Shown: positions 21,561 through 27,248 of the stretch, piece after piece | How positions within the stretch are numbered: the stretch's first letter is position 1 | Layout of the letters: each line of letters opens with the position of its first letter | Assembly (NCBI GenBank): GCA_937907245.1 | Contig: CALCUM010000002.1 | Span: 1 to 64,000 of the forward strand | From: an uncultured Rhodobiaceae bacterium | GTDB taxonomy: Bacteria > Pseudomonadota > Alphaproteobacteria > RS24 | Direction of reading: 5' to 3' | DNA: 64,000 bases | Program-made: the position numbers and the translations under genes | Notes under the pieces: model-generated | Told to the model about the DNA's origin: nothing | Seen by the model: only the letters and a program-made list of their open reading frames with translations | Database searches by the model: none

Positions 21561-22614
21561 CTAGTCATCGTCTTCAATAATAATTAAATCCTGCTTTTCC
21601 AGCTCATCGACATATTTTTCCATCGTAATCATGCCGAATTGCGCGCCGGTTTGCATAACGGTGGCAATTTGAGGAATTTTATCTTCACGAATAAGATTGC
21701 GAATCGCAGGCACACAGACCATGACTTCAAAGGCGTCGATACGTCCGCCACCTTTGCGCTTCAGCAATTGCTGCGTCATGACCAATTGTAAGGAAGAGGC
21801 CACCATCGAGCGCGCTTGGGGTTGCTCGTCGGCAGGAAAAGCATCGATGATACGGTTGATTGTCTCGGCCGCGCCAGAGGTATGCAAAGTACCAAACACC
21901 AAATGACCCGTCTCGGCCGCGGTAAGCGCCAAAGAAATAGTCTCATAATCGCGCATCTCCCCGAGCAGAATAATATCTGGGTCTTCGCGCAAAGCCCCCT
22001 TCAAGGCAGAGGCAAAACTTACGGTGTCACGGCCAACTTCGCGCTGAGAAATAATTGAATTATTTTCTGTATGCACAAATTCCACTGGGTCTTCGATGGT
22101 AATAATATGCTCTTTGCGCTCGCGGTTAATCTTATTGATCAAGGCGGCCAAAGAGGTCGATTTGCCCGAGCCCGTGGCCCCGGTTACCAGCACCATGCCT
22201 TTTTTTTCTTTCAAAATATTATGCACAGCGGCCGGCAATCCCAATTGGTCGATATTGGGAACTTCAGTCACAATGGTACGCATAATCAGCGCCCAGCCTT
22301 TTAGCGTATGATAGCCATTGGCCCGAAAGCGCGCACCGCGCACGGTCATCGCGAAGTCGATATCGTTGGTCTCGCAAAACCGCTCGTAGTCTTCTTCCGA
22401 TAATTCAGCCCGAAAAATGTCATCGAGCAAATTATGGGTGATCGGATAGCCTTCCAGCACTTTAAATACAATTGGTGCGGATGGCTAAGTCACTTCCCGA
22501 GCGCATATGAAAATCTGAAATGCGATACTCTTTTGGCAAAGTGTCGAGATAGCCATAAATCGGATTATCTGTCTTATAGGCTTCGGTATGGGGCGGTGGA
22601 ATTGAGTCTGACAT
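21561..22614 (-). pseudogene. pilT: pilT/pilU-like retraction ATPase, split by a single-base frameshift
   Basis: A PilT-type hexameric ATPase that would power pilus retraction. The N-terminal 50 codons start at ATG 22614 (MSDSIPPPHTEAYK) and run through RISDFHMRSGSDLAIRTN to a TAA at 22462. One frame over, the protein continues as KVLEGYPITHNLLDD to the end, with Walker A GATGSGKST, Walker B DIILLGEMRD and GTLHTSGAAETINRI all intact. Removing one T from the short T run at the junction restores a protein of about 350 aa, the normal length. The frameshift may be a recent mutation, a sequencing error or, less likely, programmed. Start codons for the C-terminal part alone would leave out the PAS-like domain. 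Confidence 0.85.
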
Positions 22615-22758
22615 ATGCTTTGACCTTTGGTCTTGCTTGCTGACGCAAGTGAATTACACAATATGCATTACAAGTTGCACTCCCACGCTTTATACTGGCC
22701 TGACAAATTGTTTGCCAGCGCCAGAACCAGAATTCGGCGCGGCTGTTGCGGATATATT

Positions 22759-23526: not shown

Positions 23527-23646
23527 GTTTGGTTTCATCCACCGATTTTGCGTCAATTGTGTTGCAACAGCCTTTATACTCAAACCTGGAAATAGATTCG
23601 TTTTGGAGCCGCCGCTAGACGCGTTCCGCCAGTAGAGGTTTGGGCA

Positions 23647-24057
23647 ATGAACACACTACGCACCGAAGATGACTATAAGCGCGCCATTCAAGATTATGTG
23701 CGCCAAGCCGAAGCCAGCTTGGAAGCCGATTTGGAAAAACGCGACCGCGAACAGGATGCGGAACAAAGCTCGCGCATGTCAGACAGTGATTTGCAGCATT
23801 ATATACAAGGGCTAGATGTCGCCATTACGCAGGAAGCCACGGTAGCCTTGCGGGCCGAGTTCCTGCGTTATTCGAGTGTGTTTGACACCGGCCGCTCGCG
23901 CGAGACCATTCGCCAAGCCGTGGCAGATGTCACGCGACCGCTTATCGAAGAGTGGATTAACCGCAATCTCGCCAATATCGCGCGGGAAGTGATTACCGAT
24001 GCCATTGGTAAAATTTCTGACGTACGACCCAGTGGGGCCCCGAGAAGGCCAAAGTAA
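23647..24057 (+). CDS. PopZ-like (DUF2497) small protein
   Basis: 136 aa, acidic and charged in the first half, with a predicted C-terminal helical region RPLIEEWINRNLANIAREVI that resembles the conserved C-terminal motif of PopZ (RPMLkeWLdeNLP.lVE). PopZ organises the cell pole in alphaproteobacteria through multimerisation of this region. The resemblance covers only about 30 residues and the proline-rich middle of PopZ is missing, so this is tentative. Its place in a pilus island would suit a polar protein. Confidence 0.5.
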   Translation: MNTLRTEDDYKRAIQDYVRQAEASLEADLEKRDREQDAEQSSRMSDSDLQHYIQGLDVAITQEATVALRAEFLRYSSVFDTGRSRETIRQAVADVTRPLIEEWINRNLANIAREVITDAIGKISDVRPSGAPRRPK

Positions 24058-24174
24058 AATGGGAGCTGGTGCCCATCGCCAGCTTAGGTAAGTAAGCTTG
24101 AGACGGGTCCTGCGCCTTGGCGGGGTAGGCAAGCCGCTTATTAGCTAGGGCCTTGGGTTTCAAAGCATCCGCTC

Positions 24175-24813
24175 CTAATATCGGGTCATGGAAAATAGAT
24201 TGAGACGTTTTCGCATTTTCATGGCCGCAATTTCATCTGTGCCGGGCACGATACGCTCCAGCTCCAAAACAACATCCAAAGAATAGGGACTCCCGCTAGC
24301 ACGGGTAAAGGTTAATCCGCCAATGACTTGCTCGGTTAGGGTTTCCCAACCTGTGTCGCCACTGTCTGGGGTGCAATTGGCGTCGATACGGGTGCGGGTT
24401 TGCAAGCGTTTTGCGTCTACCCGAAACTGGCGTAACTCGCGTTGGCTAGCAGATTTATCGACGCAGATGTTTATTTGGCCTGCGCCCGGAATGGACAAAG
24501 CGCTGGCCTCCGGCAAGGCGCTCGCTCTTTGCAGGTCGCCAGCCAAGCCAGACCAGGGTTCCAGCATTTTAAACACTTGGGCGCCGCTCGCCAGCAAGCG
24601 GGTCTGTGTGTTCATACGCTCGCTTTGGGTGTTCAGATTATTCATCACAGCGATTAGGGCTGCGGTGATAATGCCAATAATGGCAACCGTGGTGGTAAGC
24701 TCGGTGAGGGAAAACCCTGCGGTGGCGTTCGCATTCTTATGGCGATGCGTCGACGATGCGGGCGGGGTCAGCTTATCCAACTTGGGCTGCGAATTCTCGC
24801 GCCTTAAGGACAT
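24175..24813 (-). CDS. Prepilin-like protein with type IV N-methylation motif
   Basis: Contains AGF^SLTELTTTVAIIGIITAA, a class III signal with Gly-1, Phe+1 and Glu+5, then a globular region of about 160 residues with few landmarks. It may be a minor pilin or pseudopilin. The start is unclear: the ATG at 24813 gives a 33-residue basic leader and overlaps the upstream gene by 41 bp; a TTG overlapping that gene's stop would shorten it; the frame also extends to 24912. It shares a strand and probably a transcript with the SHOCT-like gene. Confidence 0.72.
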   Translation of the reverse strand: MSLRRENSQPKLDKLTPPASSTHRHKNANATAGFSLTELTTTVAIIGIITAALIAVMNNLNTQSERMNTQTRLLASGAQVFKMLEPWSGLAGDLQRASALPEASALSIPGAGQINICVDKSASQRELRQFRVDAKRLQTRTRIDANCTPDSGDTGWETLTEQVIGGLTFTRASGSPYSLDVVLELERIVPGTDEIAAMKMRKRLNLFSMTRY

Positions 24814-25471
24814 AAATTTCAGGGGCAATAAGGCCGGCTTCATACAACTCGCGCAAAGCCATGAGCTTTCGCTCAATCTCGGCCAGTCGAGCGCATTCGG
24901 CGGCGGCGGCACGCATTTTGCTGTCTTCGGGCGTCGGTTGATGGCCCATCTGCGAGGCTTCGGCAGCGGGCGATGTCGCCACGGGTTTGGTTTCTTTGTG
25001 CAGCCAAGAGGCGCTGAAAAAACGAGATTTATGCGGCGGCGGAGCCTGGACTACTTTGGGAATGGTAATACCGTCCCGAGTGTTCACATTATCTAAATCA
25101 TCCCCGATAGGCATATTGGGTCTTTCGTCGGGTGGGGAGGTGTCTAATTCGAAAGCCACGGTTGCGGCGGTATCCACCTTTTCTTCTTTCTCTTTCGTGC
25201 CTTGGTTTATATCCACAGTCATATCCATATCGCCGTCTAGCTCCATCGTCATATTGATATCGTCATCGATTACAGTTTCGGGGCTTGGTGCTTTTGTCTC
25301 GGCCATGGGGTCGCGCATTGGAGCGGCGGGGGCCACAGCGTTAGTTTTGCTAGAGCGTGAGATTATAATCAACATAAACAGGGCCAAAACAGCTAGGCCG
25401 CCGGCTGCGTATATCGCGCCATTTTCTTCCATCATGCGGGCAATGATTCTGCTAATTCGATCGAAATCCAT
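24773..25471 (-). CDS. Membrane-anchored protein with SHOCT-like C-terminal helices
   Basis: 232 aa. One membrane segment near residues 20-37 (IYAAGGLAVLALFMLIIIS), a long acidic, Asp/Met-rich low-complexity stretch (about 60-110), a Pro-rich linker, and a C-terminal ALRELYEAGLIAPEIYVLK that resembles a SHOCT domain (short helical oligomerisation module). No enzyme motif. Upstream of a prepilin gene with overlap, so a pilus-related or assembly role is possible but unproven. Confidence 0.6.
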   Translation of the reverse strand: MDFDRISRIIARMMEENGAIYAAGGLAVLALFMLIIISRSSKTNAVAPAAPMRDPMAETKAPSPETVIDDDINMTMELDGDMDMTVDINQGTKEKEEKVDTAATVAFELDTSPPDERPNMPIGDDLDNVNTRDGITIPKVVQAPPPHKSRFFSASWLHKETKPVATSPAAEASQMGHQPTPEDSKMRAAAAECARLAEIERKLMALRELYEAGLIAPEIYVLKAREFAAQVG

Positions 25472-25529: not shown

Positions 25530-26357
25530 TTAAACCTCCATATGCAAATAATCGCGCGTCACAAAGCTATGTGGCAAAATCGCTTGCGCGCGGGTTTCAA
25601 TATCGGTTAATGCCGCATCGCTGCGCTCGGGTTCGTGGTGAAAAATACCAAATTTTTTAACTTCTGCGGCCTCGGCCAAACGCAGGCCCTCTTGCCACGT
25701 CGAATGCCCCCAGCCGCGGCGCCGCTCAAATTCACCATCGTCAAAACTGCAGTCATATACTGACATGTCGGCATTGCGCAAAAACTCGATTAGCGATTGA
25801 TTTGGCTCGCCGATACTATGCTCCGTGTCCGTGGCATAAACGAAAGATTTGCCGCCGGCCTTAGCCTTTAGGGCGTGGGCCCCGCCTGGGTGCGGAATTT
25901 CGAGCGCTTGAACCTGTATGCCACCAATGTCCACGTCTGGGCTAGAAATTTGCGCCTTAATATCGGCCTGCAAATTGGCCCAAGTTTGCGCATCTCCCCC
26001 GCGGCGTAACATGTTCCAAACGGGCAGGATTTCACTGGGGGTCGTGCGGTCGGGCTCGGTGAATAAAACATCGAAAGCAATGGCAGCGCTTCCATCTTCG
26101 CTCATATTGCGCACCAATTCGGCAAACACGCTGCGCGGCCATGGAAACTGGCCAATGGCTTTTAAGCTGGCTTCATCAATATCCACGAAGACGACCAAAT
26201 CATTGGTTTCGACGCGCGGCTGCCAACGATTGTATTGATCGAACACAAGGTTGCGTATAAATTCGACAGGATAAGGTTGCCCCAATTGCAGGGCCACGCC
26301 CAATAATAAGACGGCGAGGGGCAGTAGATAGTTTTGTAAACGCAACAAAAACCGCAC
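25530..26357 (-). CDS. CHASE2 / metallo-beta-lactamase chimera (275 aa)
   Basis: Residues 8-28 form a membrane segment. Residues about 33-114 match the start of a CHASE2 extracellular sensor (LVFDQYNRWQPR, VFVDIDEASLKAIGQFPWPR, FDVLFTEPDRTTPSE). From about 115 the sequence is the C-terminal half of an MBL-fold hydrolase: EIPHPGG, YATDTEH, GWGHSTWQEG and FHHEPERSD. The HxHxDH metal motif that should precede it is missing. CHASE2 normally leads into a cytoplasmic output such as a cyclase. I infer that a deletion fused two neighbouring genes. The product may be inert, or a membrane-tethered remnant. Confidence 0.75.
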   Translation of the reverse strand: MRFLLRLQNYLLPLAVLLLGVALQLGQPYPVEFIRNLVFDQYNRWQPRVETNDLVVFVDIDEASLKAIGQFPWPRSVFAELVRNMSEDGSAAIAFDVLFTEPDRTTPSEILPVWNMLRRGGDAQTWANLQADIKAQISSPDVDIGGIQVQALEIPHPGGAHALKAKAGGKSFVYATDTEHSIGEPNQSLIEFLRNADMSVYDCSFDDGEFERRRGWGHSTWQEGLRLAEAAEVKKFGIFHHEPERSDAALTDIETRAQAILPHSFVTRDYLHMEV

Positions 26358-26450: not shown

Positions 26451-27248
26451 TTATTTTTGCCACGGGTGCTCTTGCGGTGTTTTGGAACTAGTTTTGCGCG
26501 CGCTTTTTCCAACTTGAGGAATATGCGTGGCCAAGCCCTGCACTTGAAAGGCTCGGCTGACGGGCTTTGAAAATAATTTCACATGCGGTTTTTTAAAAAA
26601 GGGAATGAGCGCCGCGCCGGCCACAAAGCCACCGATATGAGCCCAATAGGCCACACCGCCGCCATTGCCAACTTGGCCAAGGCTCATAAATTGCAGGCCA
26701 ATCCAGCCCCCTAGCACCAAAAAAGCGGGGACGTTGATCATGCGGAAAAAAATGAAAAACCCTACCAAGCAGCGGATGTTGGCGCGCGGATGCAGCAGCA
26801 AATAGGCGCCCAAAACGCCCGCTATGGCGCCACTGGCACCGATCATTGGAATGTCGGAGCGCACATCGACAAAAGCTTGCGAGAGCGCCGCCGCAATGCC
26901 GCACAGCAGATAGAAAATAACGAAATTTCGGCGGCCAATGCTGTCTTCTACATTGTCGGAAAAAATCCAGAGATACAGCATATTGCCAGCTAAATGCATA
27001 AAGCCACCATGCAGAAACATGGAGCTGATGAGGGTCATCCAAGCGGGAATAACGCTGGGCAGGCCATAGGCAGCCTCGGGCGCAAATAGGCGCAGGGGCA
27101 CCATGCCAAAAGCCATAATGGCTTCGCGTTGCGTCTCGCCTAACGAGATTTGCCAAAAGAAAACACTCATGCAAAGCGCCAGCACAAGATAAGAAATTAT
27201 GGGCCGCGCACGCGTAGGATTGTCATCTCGGATGGGAAAAAAGAACAT
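26451..27248 (-). CDS. Rhomboid family intramembrane serine protease
   Basis: 265 aa with about six membrane segments. The catalytic Ser lies in MIGASGAIAGVLGAY and the partner His in GGVAYWAHIGGFVAGAAL; LHGGFMHLAGNMLYLWIF carries the oxyanion-hole His-Asn region. It cuts membrane proteins within the bilayer; substrates unknown. The basic C-terminal tail of about 45 residues is cytoplasmic. Nineteen bases downstream of the M16 gene on the same strand. Confidence 0.94.
   Translation of the reverse strand: MFFFPIRDDNPTRARPIISYLVLALCMSVFFWQISLGETQREAIMAFGMVPLRLFAPEAAYGLPSVIPAWMTLISSMFLHGGFMHLAGNMLYLWIFSDNVEDSIGRRNFVIFYLLCGIAAALSQAFVDVRSDIPMIGASGAIAGVLGAYLLLHPRANIRCLVGFFIFFRMINVPAFLVLGGWIGLQFMSLGQVGNGGGVAYWAHIGGFVAGAALIPFFKKPHVKLFSKPVSRAFQVQGLATHIPQVGKSARKTSSKTPQEHPWQK

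Follow-up and report, generated by a model that had tools for sequence, protein, structure and literature searches.

The window (the whole 64,000-nt stretch of DNA analyzed here) contains on its minus strand a chimeric open reading frame (25530..26357), in which part of a CHASE2-class III cyclase gene is joined to part of a gene for a metallo-beta-lactamase (MBL)-fold hydrolase. The frame begins with GTG and runs uninterrupted for 275 codons without an internal stop. It lies on a 760 kb contig of the genome designated G000 (1.80 Mb in 3 contigs, 100% complete), in which the sole match to the chimera was the frame itself; a second copy of either gene was absent. Pfam searches returned two matches: CHASE2 at residues 18-131 (E 1.7e-20), which covers only profile positions 5-95 of 257 and is thus not a complete domain, and Lactamase_B_2 at residues 124-241 (profile positions 85-200 of 200, E 1.5e-6), with a score of 28.4 bits (cut-off 27). 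Guanylate_cyc, the class III catalytic domain, gave no Pfam match in the chimera, and the HxHxDH metal-binding motif is absent. This motif was present in all 76 intact MBL homologues examined (79 loci were fetched, and 3 were dropped because MBL was missing or truncated), and the region that bears it falls inside the deleted part; the later ligand positions HP, TDTEH, and FHHEP are retained. The first-pass annotation had described half a CHASE2 sensor fused to the later part of an MBL hydrolase lacking HxHxDH, and both statements hold.

Comparison with the intact genes of the same-genus relative G001 assigned codons 1-141 (25935..26357, minus strand) to the cyclase gene, with 88% amino acid identity, and codons 143-275 (25533..25931, minus strand) to the MBL gene, with 82% identity over 133 codons; both alignments were gap-free. 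The former part runs through the first helix and one third of the way into CHASE2, and the latter, the last 133 codons, comprises the C-terminal half of MBL with the later metal-ligand positions. Codon 142 (GTG; 25932..25934, minus strand) is assignable to neither gene, and the join was placed at 25932-25935 with one-codon resolution. The CHASE2 part had earlier been given as 114 residues; it is 141 residues long, residues 115-141 being sequence of the CHASE2-cyclase gene and not a linker or MBL. The join, earlier put at 25990-26030, had been misplaced by approximately 55-100 bases.

An intact rhomboid protease gene (26451..27248, minus strand; Pfam PF01694), which we used as a control gene, lies upstream of the chimera, and a conserved gene of no confident family (24773..25471, minus strand) lies downstream; the order of both is kept in relatives. 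G001 has these genes in the sequence rhomboid, CHASE2-cyclase, MBL, downstream gene, and prepilin-like gene, and the flanks in the window match it. A search for the two chimera halves covered 61 genomes, G000 included. Separate CHASE2-cyclase and MBL genes were found in 10 of the 11 same-genus relatives (G001-G005 and G007-G011), with lengths of approximately 770 aa for the CHASE2/class III cyclase and 275 aa for the MBL hydrolase; the eleventh, G006 (77% complete), had neither. As the first-pass annotation had anticipated, the two intact genes stand side by side, on the same strand, in nine of these ten relatives, and in G010 they lie on separate contigs. The G001 cyclase has 762 aa, with CHASE2 at 21-386 and Guanylate_cyc at 486-673, both above the Pfam cut-offs, and the G001 MBL protein has 269 aa, the motif SHFHSDH, and domain PF12706. 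The order and orientation of these intact genes fit a single fusing deletion, and the gene layout of the relatives agrees with the earlier proposal that such an event removed the end of CHASE2, the cyclase, and the start of MBL and left the frame open. Conservation of the chimera in many relatives, which would have spoken for a functional protein, was not observed: the chimera occurred in none of the 60 other genomes.

Of the 28 genomes of the family (G000-G027), 15 carried both the cyclase and the MBL gene, 12 carried neither, and 1 had the two fused. In one of the 15, G018, a contig end after the cyclase holds only the N-terminal half of MBL, and several of the 12 genomes without the pair are incomplete (range 56-100%). 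Neither the chimera halves nor PF00211 or PF00027 had a match in three members of another genus of the family (G016, G019, and G022; 85-100% complete), which may have lost the same circuit completely and independently.

The sequence missing at the join amounts to 2289-2309 nt, measured as the distance between the matching points in six relatives. The longest exact word common to both breakpoints within 30 nt was only 5-10 nt in these relatives, so that an assembly join caused by a repeat is unlikely, and we rejected such an artefact for want of a long shared word. The breakpoints fit a deletion through illegitimate recombination, with little homology or none; they do not fit repeat collapse by an assembler.

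To both halves of the chimera in five genomes we fitted a codon model. Omega was 0.078 on the G000 branch and 0.105 elsewhere (p 0.36 for the difference), omega = 1 was rejected for the G000 branch (2dlnL 40.3, p 2e-10), and no relaxed selection was seen in either half. A second codon model estimated, under two topologies, the fraction of the G000 branch that was neutral since the deletion. The best value was 0; a fraction of 0.05 cost a 2dlnL of 3.45-3.89 and one of 0.08 cost 6.5-6.7, and neutrality since birth would mean that the chimera is younger than approximately 5% of its branch. From this one genome, the low omega and the small neutral fraction point either to a recent deletion or to constraint on the product. 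The chimera keeps its start codon as well as the stop codon of MBL, and there were no indels in 822 nt relative to G001, with which a FastTree phylogeny of concatenated genes groups G000 (support 0.96). Among the controls, the timing test was weak with G004 as foreground (a fraction of 0.15 was not rejected), omega on the G001 branch was below that of the rest (p 0.036), and a peptidase gene was under stronger constraint on the G000 branch (p 0.005). Dating from unique changes at otherwise invariant residues was uninformative, as G000 had 1 in 72 and 2 in 67 such sites, like its relatives.

The AlphaFold model of the chimera had a mean pLDDT of 63.5, against 93.5 for intact MBL. Residues 2-25 form a helix, residues 27-121 fell below 50, a low value obtained from a thin alignment of 5 relatives, and the MBL half was mostly above 80. 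The product, if made at all, is likely to be a membrane-anchored fragment with no metal site, to judge from the model, and the single N-terminal helix makes plausible the periplasmic location of the MBL half that the first-pass annotation had suggested. Such a product should neither make nor hydrolyze a cyclic nucleotide.

The chimera lies inside a gene cluster resembling type IV pilus and type II secretion clusters, with prepilin-like genes, a prepilin peptidase gene, and a T2SSE ATPase gene. One prepilin-like gene (24175..24912, minus strand) shows a weak N_methyl match, and its homologue in G008 is above the cut-off. At the adjoining site (23527..24174), G001, G005, G007, and G008 carry a secretin gene (approximately 1030 aa) and two additional prepilin-like genes; all three are missing here, and a search of the whole G000 genome gave no secretin match with a query that hits G001, G005, and G007 by tblastn. 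The type II/IV secretion ATPase gene (T2SSE; 21561..22625, minus strand), which we take to be PilT-like, is frameshifted: compared with G001, it lacks 2 nt slightly upstream of 22460, and the first ~50 codons are thereby split off. The rest of this gene is well conserved, which points either to recent pseudogenization or to an error in the sequence. Between the prepilin peptidase and prepilin-like genes, the gene at 23647-24057 has a DUF2497 match barely above the cut-off. A link between pili and cAMP has been described for Pseudomonas aeruginosa; by analogy, a tie between the pilus and a cyclic nucleotide in the present organism may be taken as a lead only.

Other proteins expected to handle cyclic nucleotides are also lost from G000. 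PF00211, a profile for class III only, gave one match in each of the ten cyclase-bearing relatives (G001-G005 and G007-G011) and none in G000. A PF00027 search revealed two proteins common to the genus, one a SulP-STAS-cNMP transporter and the other Popeye-like. The transporter (~735 aa, with SulP, STAS, and cNMP_binding domains, all three above the Pfam cut-offs in G001) is present in 9 of the 11 same-genus relatives and absent from G000, where the only SulP protein is a distant one (603 aa, 26% identity). Its former site there is a stretch of 163 nt (G000:C2:623437-623599; L127:3438-3600) between intact enoyl-CoA hydratase and MFS genes. In this stretch lie two pieces collinear with the transporter gene; the second corresponds to GEMGFVRKEARSAQ, the transporter's cyclic-nucleotide pocket. 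None of 500 shuffles reached the score of either piece against G001 and G004; against G005, piece 2 was significant and piece 1 was not (20 of 500 shuffles reached its score).

The small Popeye-like membrane protein, which contains a cNMP_binding domain, occurs in 10 of the 11 relatives, which keep its gene beside a beta carbonic anhydrase gene; one of three intact proteins tested passed the POPDC1-3 cut-off, and two fell below it. In G000, a relic on the minus strand (G000:C2:232678-232874; L171:1179-1375) adjoins the same carbonic anhydrase gene, which is intact. The relic holds TGA and TAG stop codons, has lost most of its middle, and over its first 185 nt differs from G005 by three frame-breaking indels. 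An equal neutral time would predict approximately 13 indels in the chimera (3/185 x 822), compared with the 0 seen; to judge from these few events, the two putative readers were probably lost before the cyclase and MBL genes. A CRP-like regulator is kept in G000 (G000:C3:672159-672797; L122:2660-3301); its sole orthologue is in G001 (60% identity). Glu and Arg-Ser/Thr are marks of the classical cyclic-nucleotide phosphate-binding cassette; by eye, the CRP-like protein lacks both, and we rejected it as a surviving reader.

The intact MBL protein of G001 matched NF041851, a model of cyclic-nucleotide-degrading phosphodiesterases, over its full length (E 1e-14), although its 54.6 bits fall short of the cut-off of 400. 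The C-terminal part also matches RNase Z models, and the predicted structure (pLDDT 93.5) is nearest to RNase Z (1y44) and YhfI (6kns). YhfI and Rv1339 are atypical class-II phosphodiesterases that carry a [T/S]HXHXDH motif and are related to RNase Z (PMC9293780). The intact MBL protein likewise has this motif, PF12706, and an RNase Z-like predicted fold; since the motif is common to other PF12706 members, it is no proof of phosphodiesterase function. Judged by sequence and predicted structure, phosphodiesterase activity is likely. The data did not support a rule under which this MBL family would generally adjoin cyclases: among 79 loci kept from the best 80 of 578 confirmed hits, 10 matched the cyclase profile, 9 of them together with MBL, so that MBL stood beside a class III cyclase in 9 of the 78 MBL-containing loci.

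We consider it highly probable that the chimera is the scar of a single deletion of approximately 2.3 kb, probably a young pseudogene, within a wider dismantling of a cyclic-nucleotide circuit. This deletion removed the class III cyclase domain entirely, along with two thirds of CHASE2 and the later part of the membrane region, and it took from MBL the first half, which binds the metal; the frame across the join stayed open by chance (one in three). In the relatives, the CHASE2 cyclase would be the maker of the messenger, MBL its presumed breaker, and the SulP-STAS-cNMP and Popeye-like proteins its presumed readers; in G000, both readers are in ruins and were probably lost first, and maker and breaker probably went later, together. 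The deletion, the lack of any class III cyclase, the two relics, and the absence of relaxed selection are shown by the data, whereas a common messenger for the four proteins, a phosphodiesterase role for MBL, and this order of losses are inferred. Against this reading we count that the chimera itself shows no decay: its omega of 0.078, not raised over the 0.105 elsewhere and far from 1, is equally expected of a selected protein, and its start and stop codons are kept. Also counted against it are the single assembly that represents the species, the thin alignment behind the low pLDDT of the CHASE2 half, the MBL homologues that mostly do not stand beside a class III cyclase, the 54.6 of 400 bits, and G003, which has the cyclase, MBL, and the Popeye-like protein and in which SulP-cNMP was undetectable. 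For the genus as a whole, we propose only tentatively, and rate somewhat below an even chance, a circuit of the CHASE2 cyclase, an MBL phosphodiesterase, the SulP-STAS-cNMP transporter, and the Popeye-like protein beside carbonic anhydrase, with a possible tie to the pilus and stepwise, all-or-none loss, readers first.

The same omega, with omega = 1 rejected, would also suit a functional new fusion, a membrane-anchored periplasmic protein of half CHASE2 and half MBL under selection, as would the 275 open codons and the kept translation start. A young deletion fully accounts for the omega, however, since neutrality over up to approximately 5% of the branch is not rejected; moreover, HxHxDH, the cyclase, and most of CHASE2 are gone, the CHASE2 half is predicted to be unordered, and the matching readers are dead. 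With the chimera confined to one genome and the catalytic cores lost, we rejected the fusion as the best reading, although dN/dS is compatible with it, and regard it as very improbable. We give equally little credence to an error of assembly or binning that joined distant pieces of an intact locus. The species is represented by a single assembly, but that assembly is complete in three contigs, the breakpoint words in six relatives are too short for assembler collapse, no second copy of the cyclase or MBL gene exists in G000, and linked functions were lost elsewhere in the genome too.

A less remote, though still unlikely, explanation accepts the deletion as real but treats it as one hit in a decaying pilus-type cluster, the loss of the readers elsewhere being coincidental. 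The missing secretin and two prepilin-like genes next door and the frameshifted ATPase agree with such decay. However, each reader, at a distance of hundreds of kb, was lost at a precise site whose flanks are intact; G000 has no class III cyclase left; and the cyclase and MBL genes are lost together across the family. If pilus and cyclic nucleotide are linked, decay of the cluster and loss of the circuit become one explanation.

Read as the scar of a deletion, the chimera itself is ordinary wreckage of a known kind, and its annotation as a sensor-hydrolase fusion should be avoided; of more value is the snapshot that it gives of a wider loss, of the maker, the presumed breaker, and the presumed readers. 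What is new here is that no class III cyclase is left in G000 and that both other cyclic-nucleotide-binding membrane proteins are ruined. The first-pass annotation, correct in its essentials, did not extend to the lost readers and pilus-type genes. Loss of a second-messenger circuit can thus leave a deceptive open reading frame, and the common fate of the four proteins suggests that they work jointly. The intact relatives are open to a test of a little-studied idea, that bacterial Popeye-like and SulP-cNMP proteins read the output of a cyclase whose neighbor degrades the same messenger. Among the open-access papers searched, none brings together CHASE2, adenylate cyclase, and metallo-beta-lactamase, and open-access titles and abstract openings contained nothing on a circuit with SulP-STAS-cNMP or on Popeye with bacteria, cAMP, and carbonic anhydrase.

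The intact relatives of the Popeye-like relic share a cNMP_binding domain with the POPDC cAMP effectors (PMC6562197), and one of three passes the POPDC1-3 cut-off; unlike POPDC proteins, they are bacterial and small, their gene adjoins that of carbonic anhydrase, and two of three fall below the cut-off. Transporters that combine SulP and STAS with cNMP_binding at the C terminus are found in 9 of the 11 relatives, and G000 has only the 163-nt ruin of one. The G001 MBL protein is like the atypical class-II phosphodiesterases Rv1339 and YhfI in PF12706, the SHFHSDH motif, the full-length NF041851 match, and its predicted fold; unlike them, this putative enzyme scores far under the NF041851 cut-off, and the half of it in the chimera is without the motif. 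The chimera also differs from the CHASE2-class III cyclases, a group that includes the Sinorhizobium meliloti CHASE2 cyclases (PMC13001267), in having no cyclase domain and in lacking approximately two thirds of CHASE2, although its N-terminal 141 residues remain 88% identical to the G001 member of that group.
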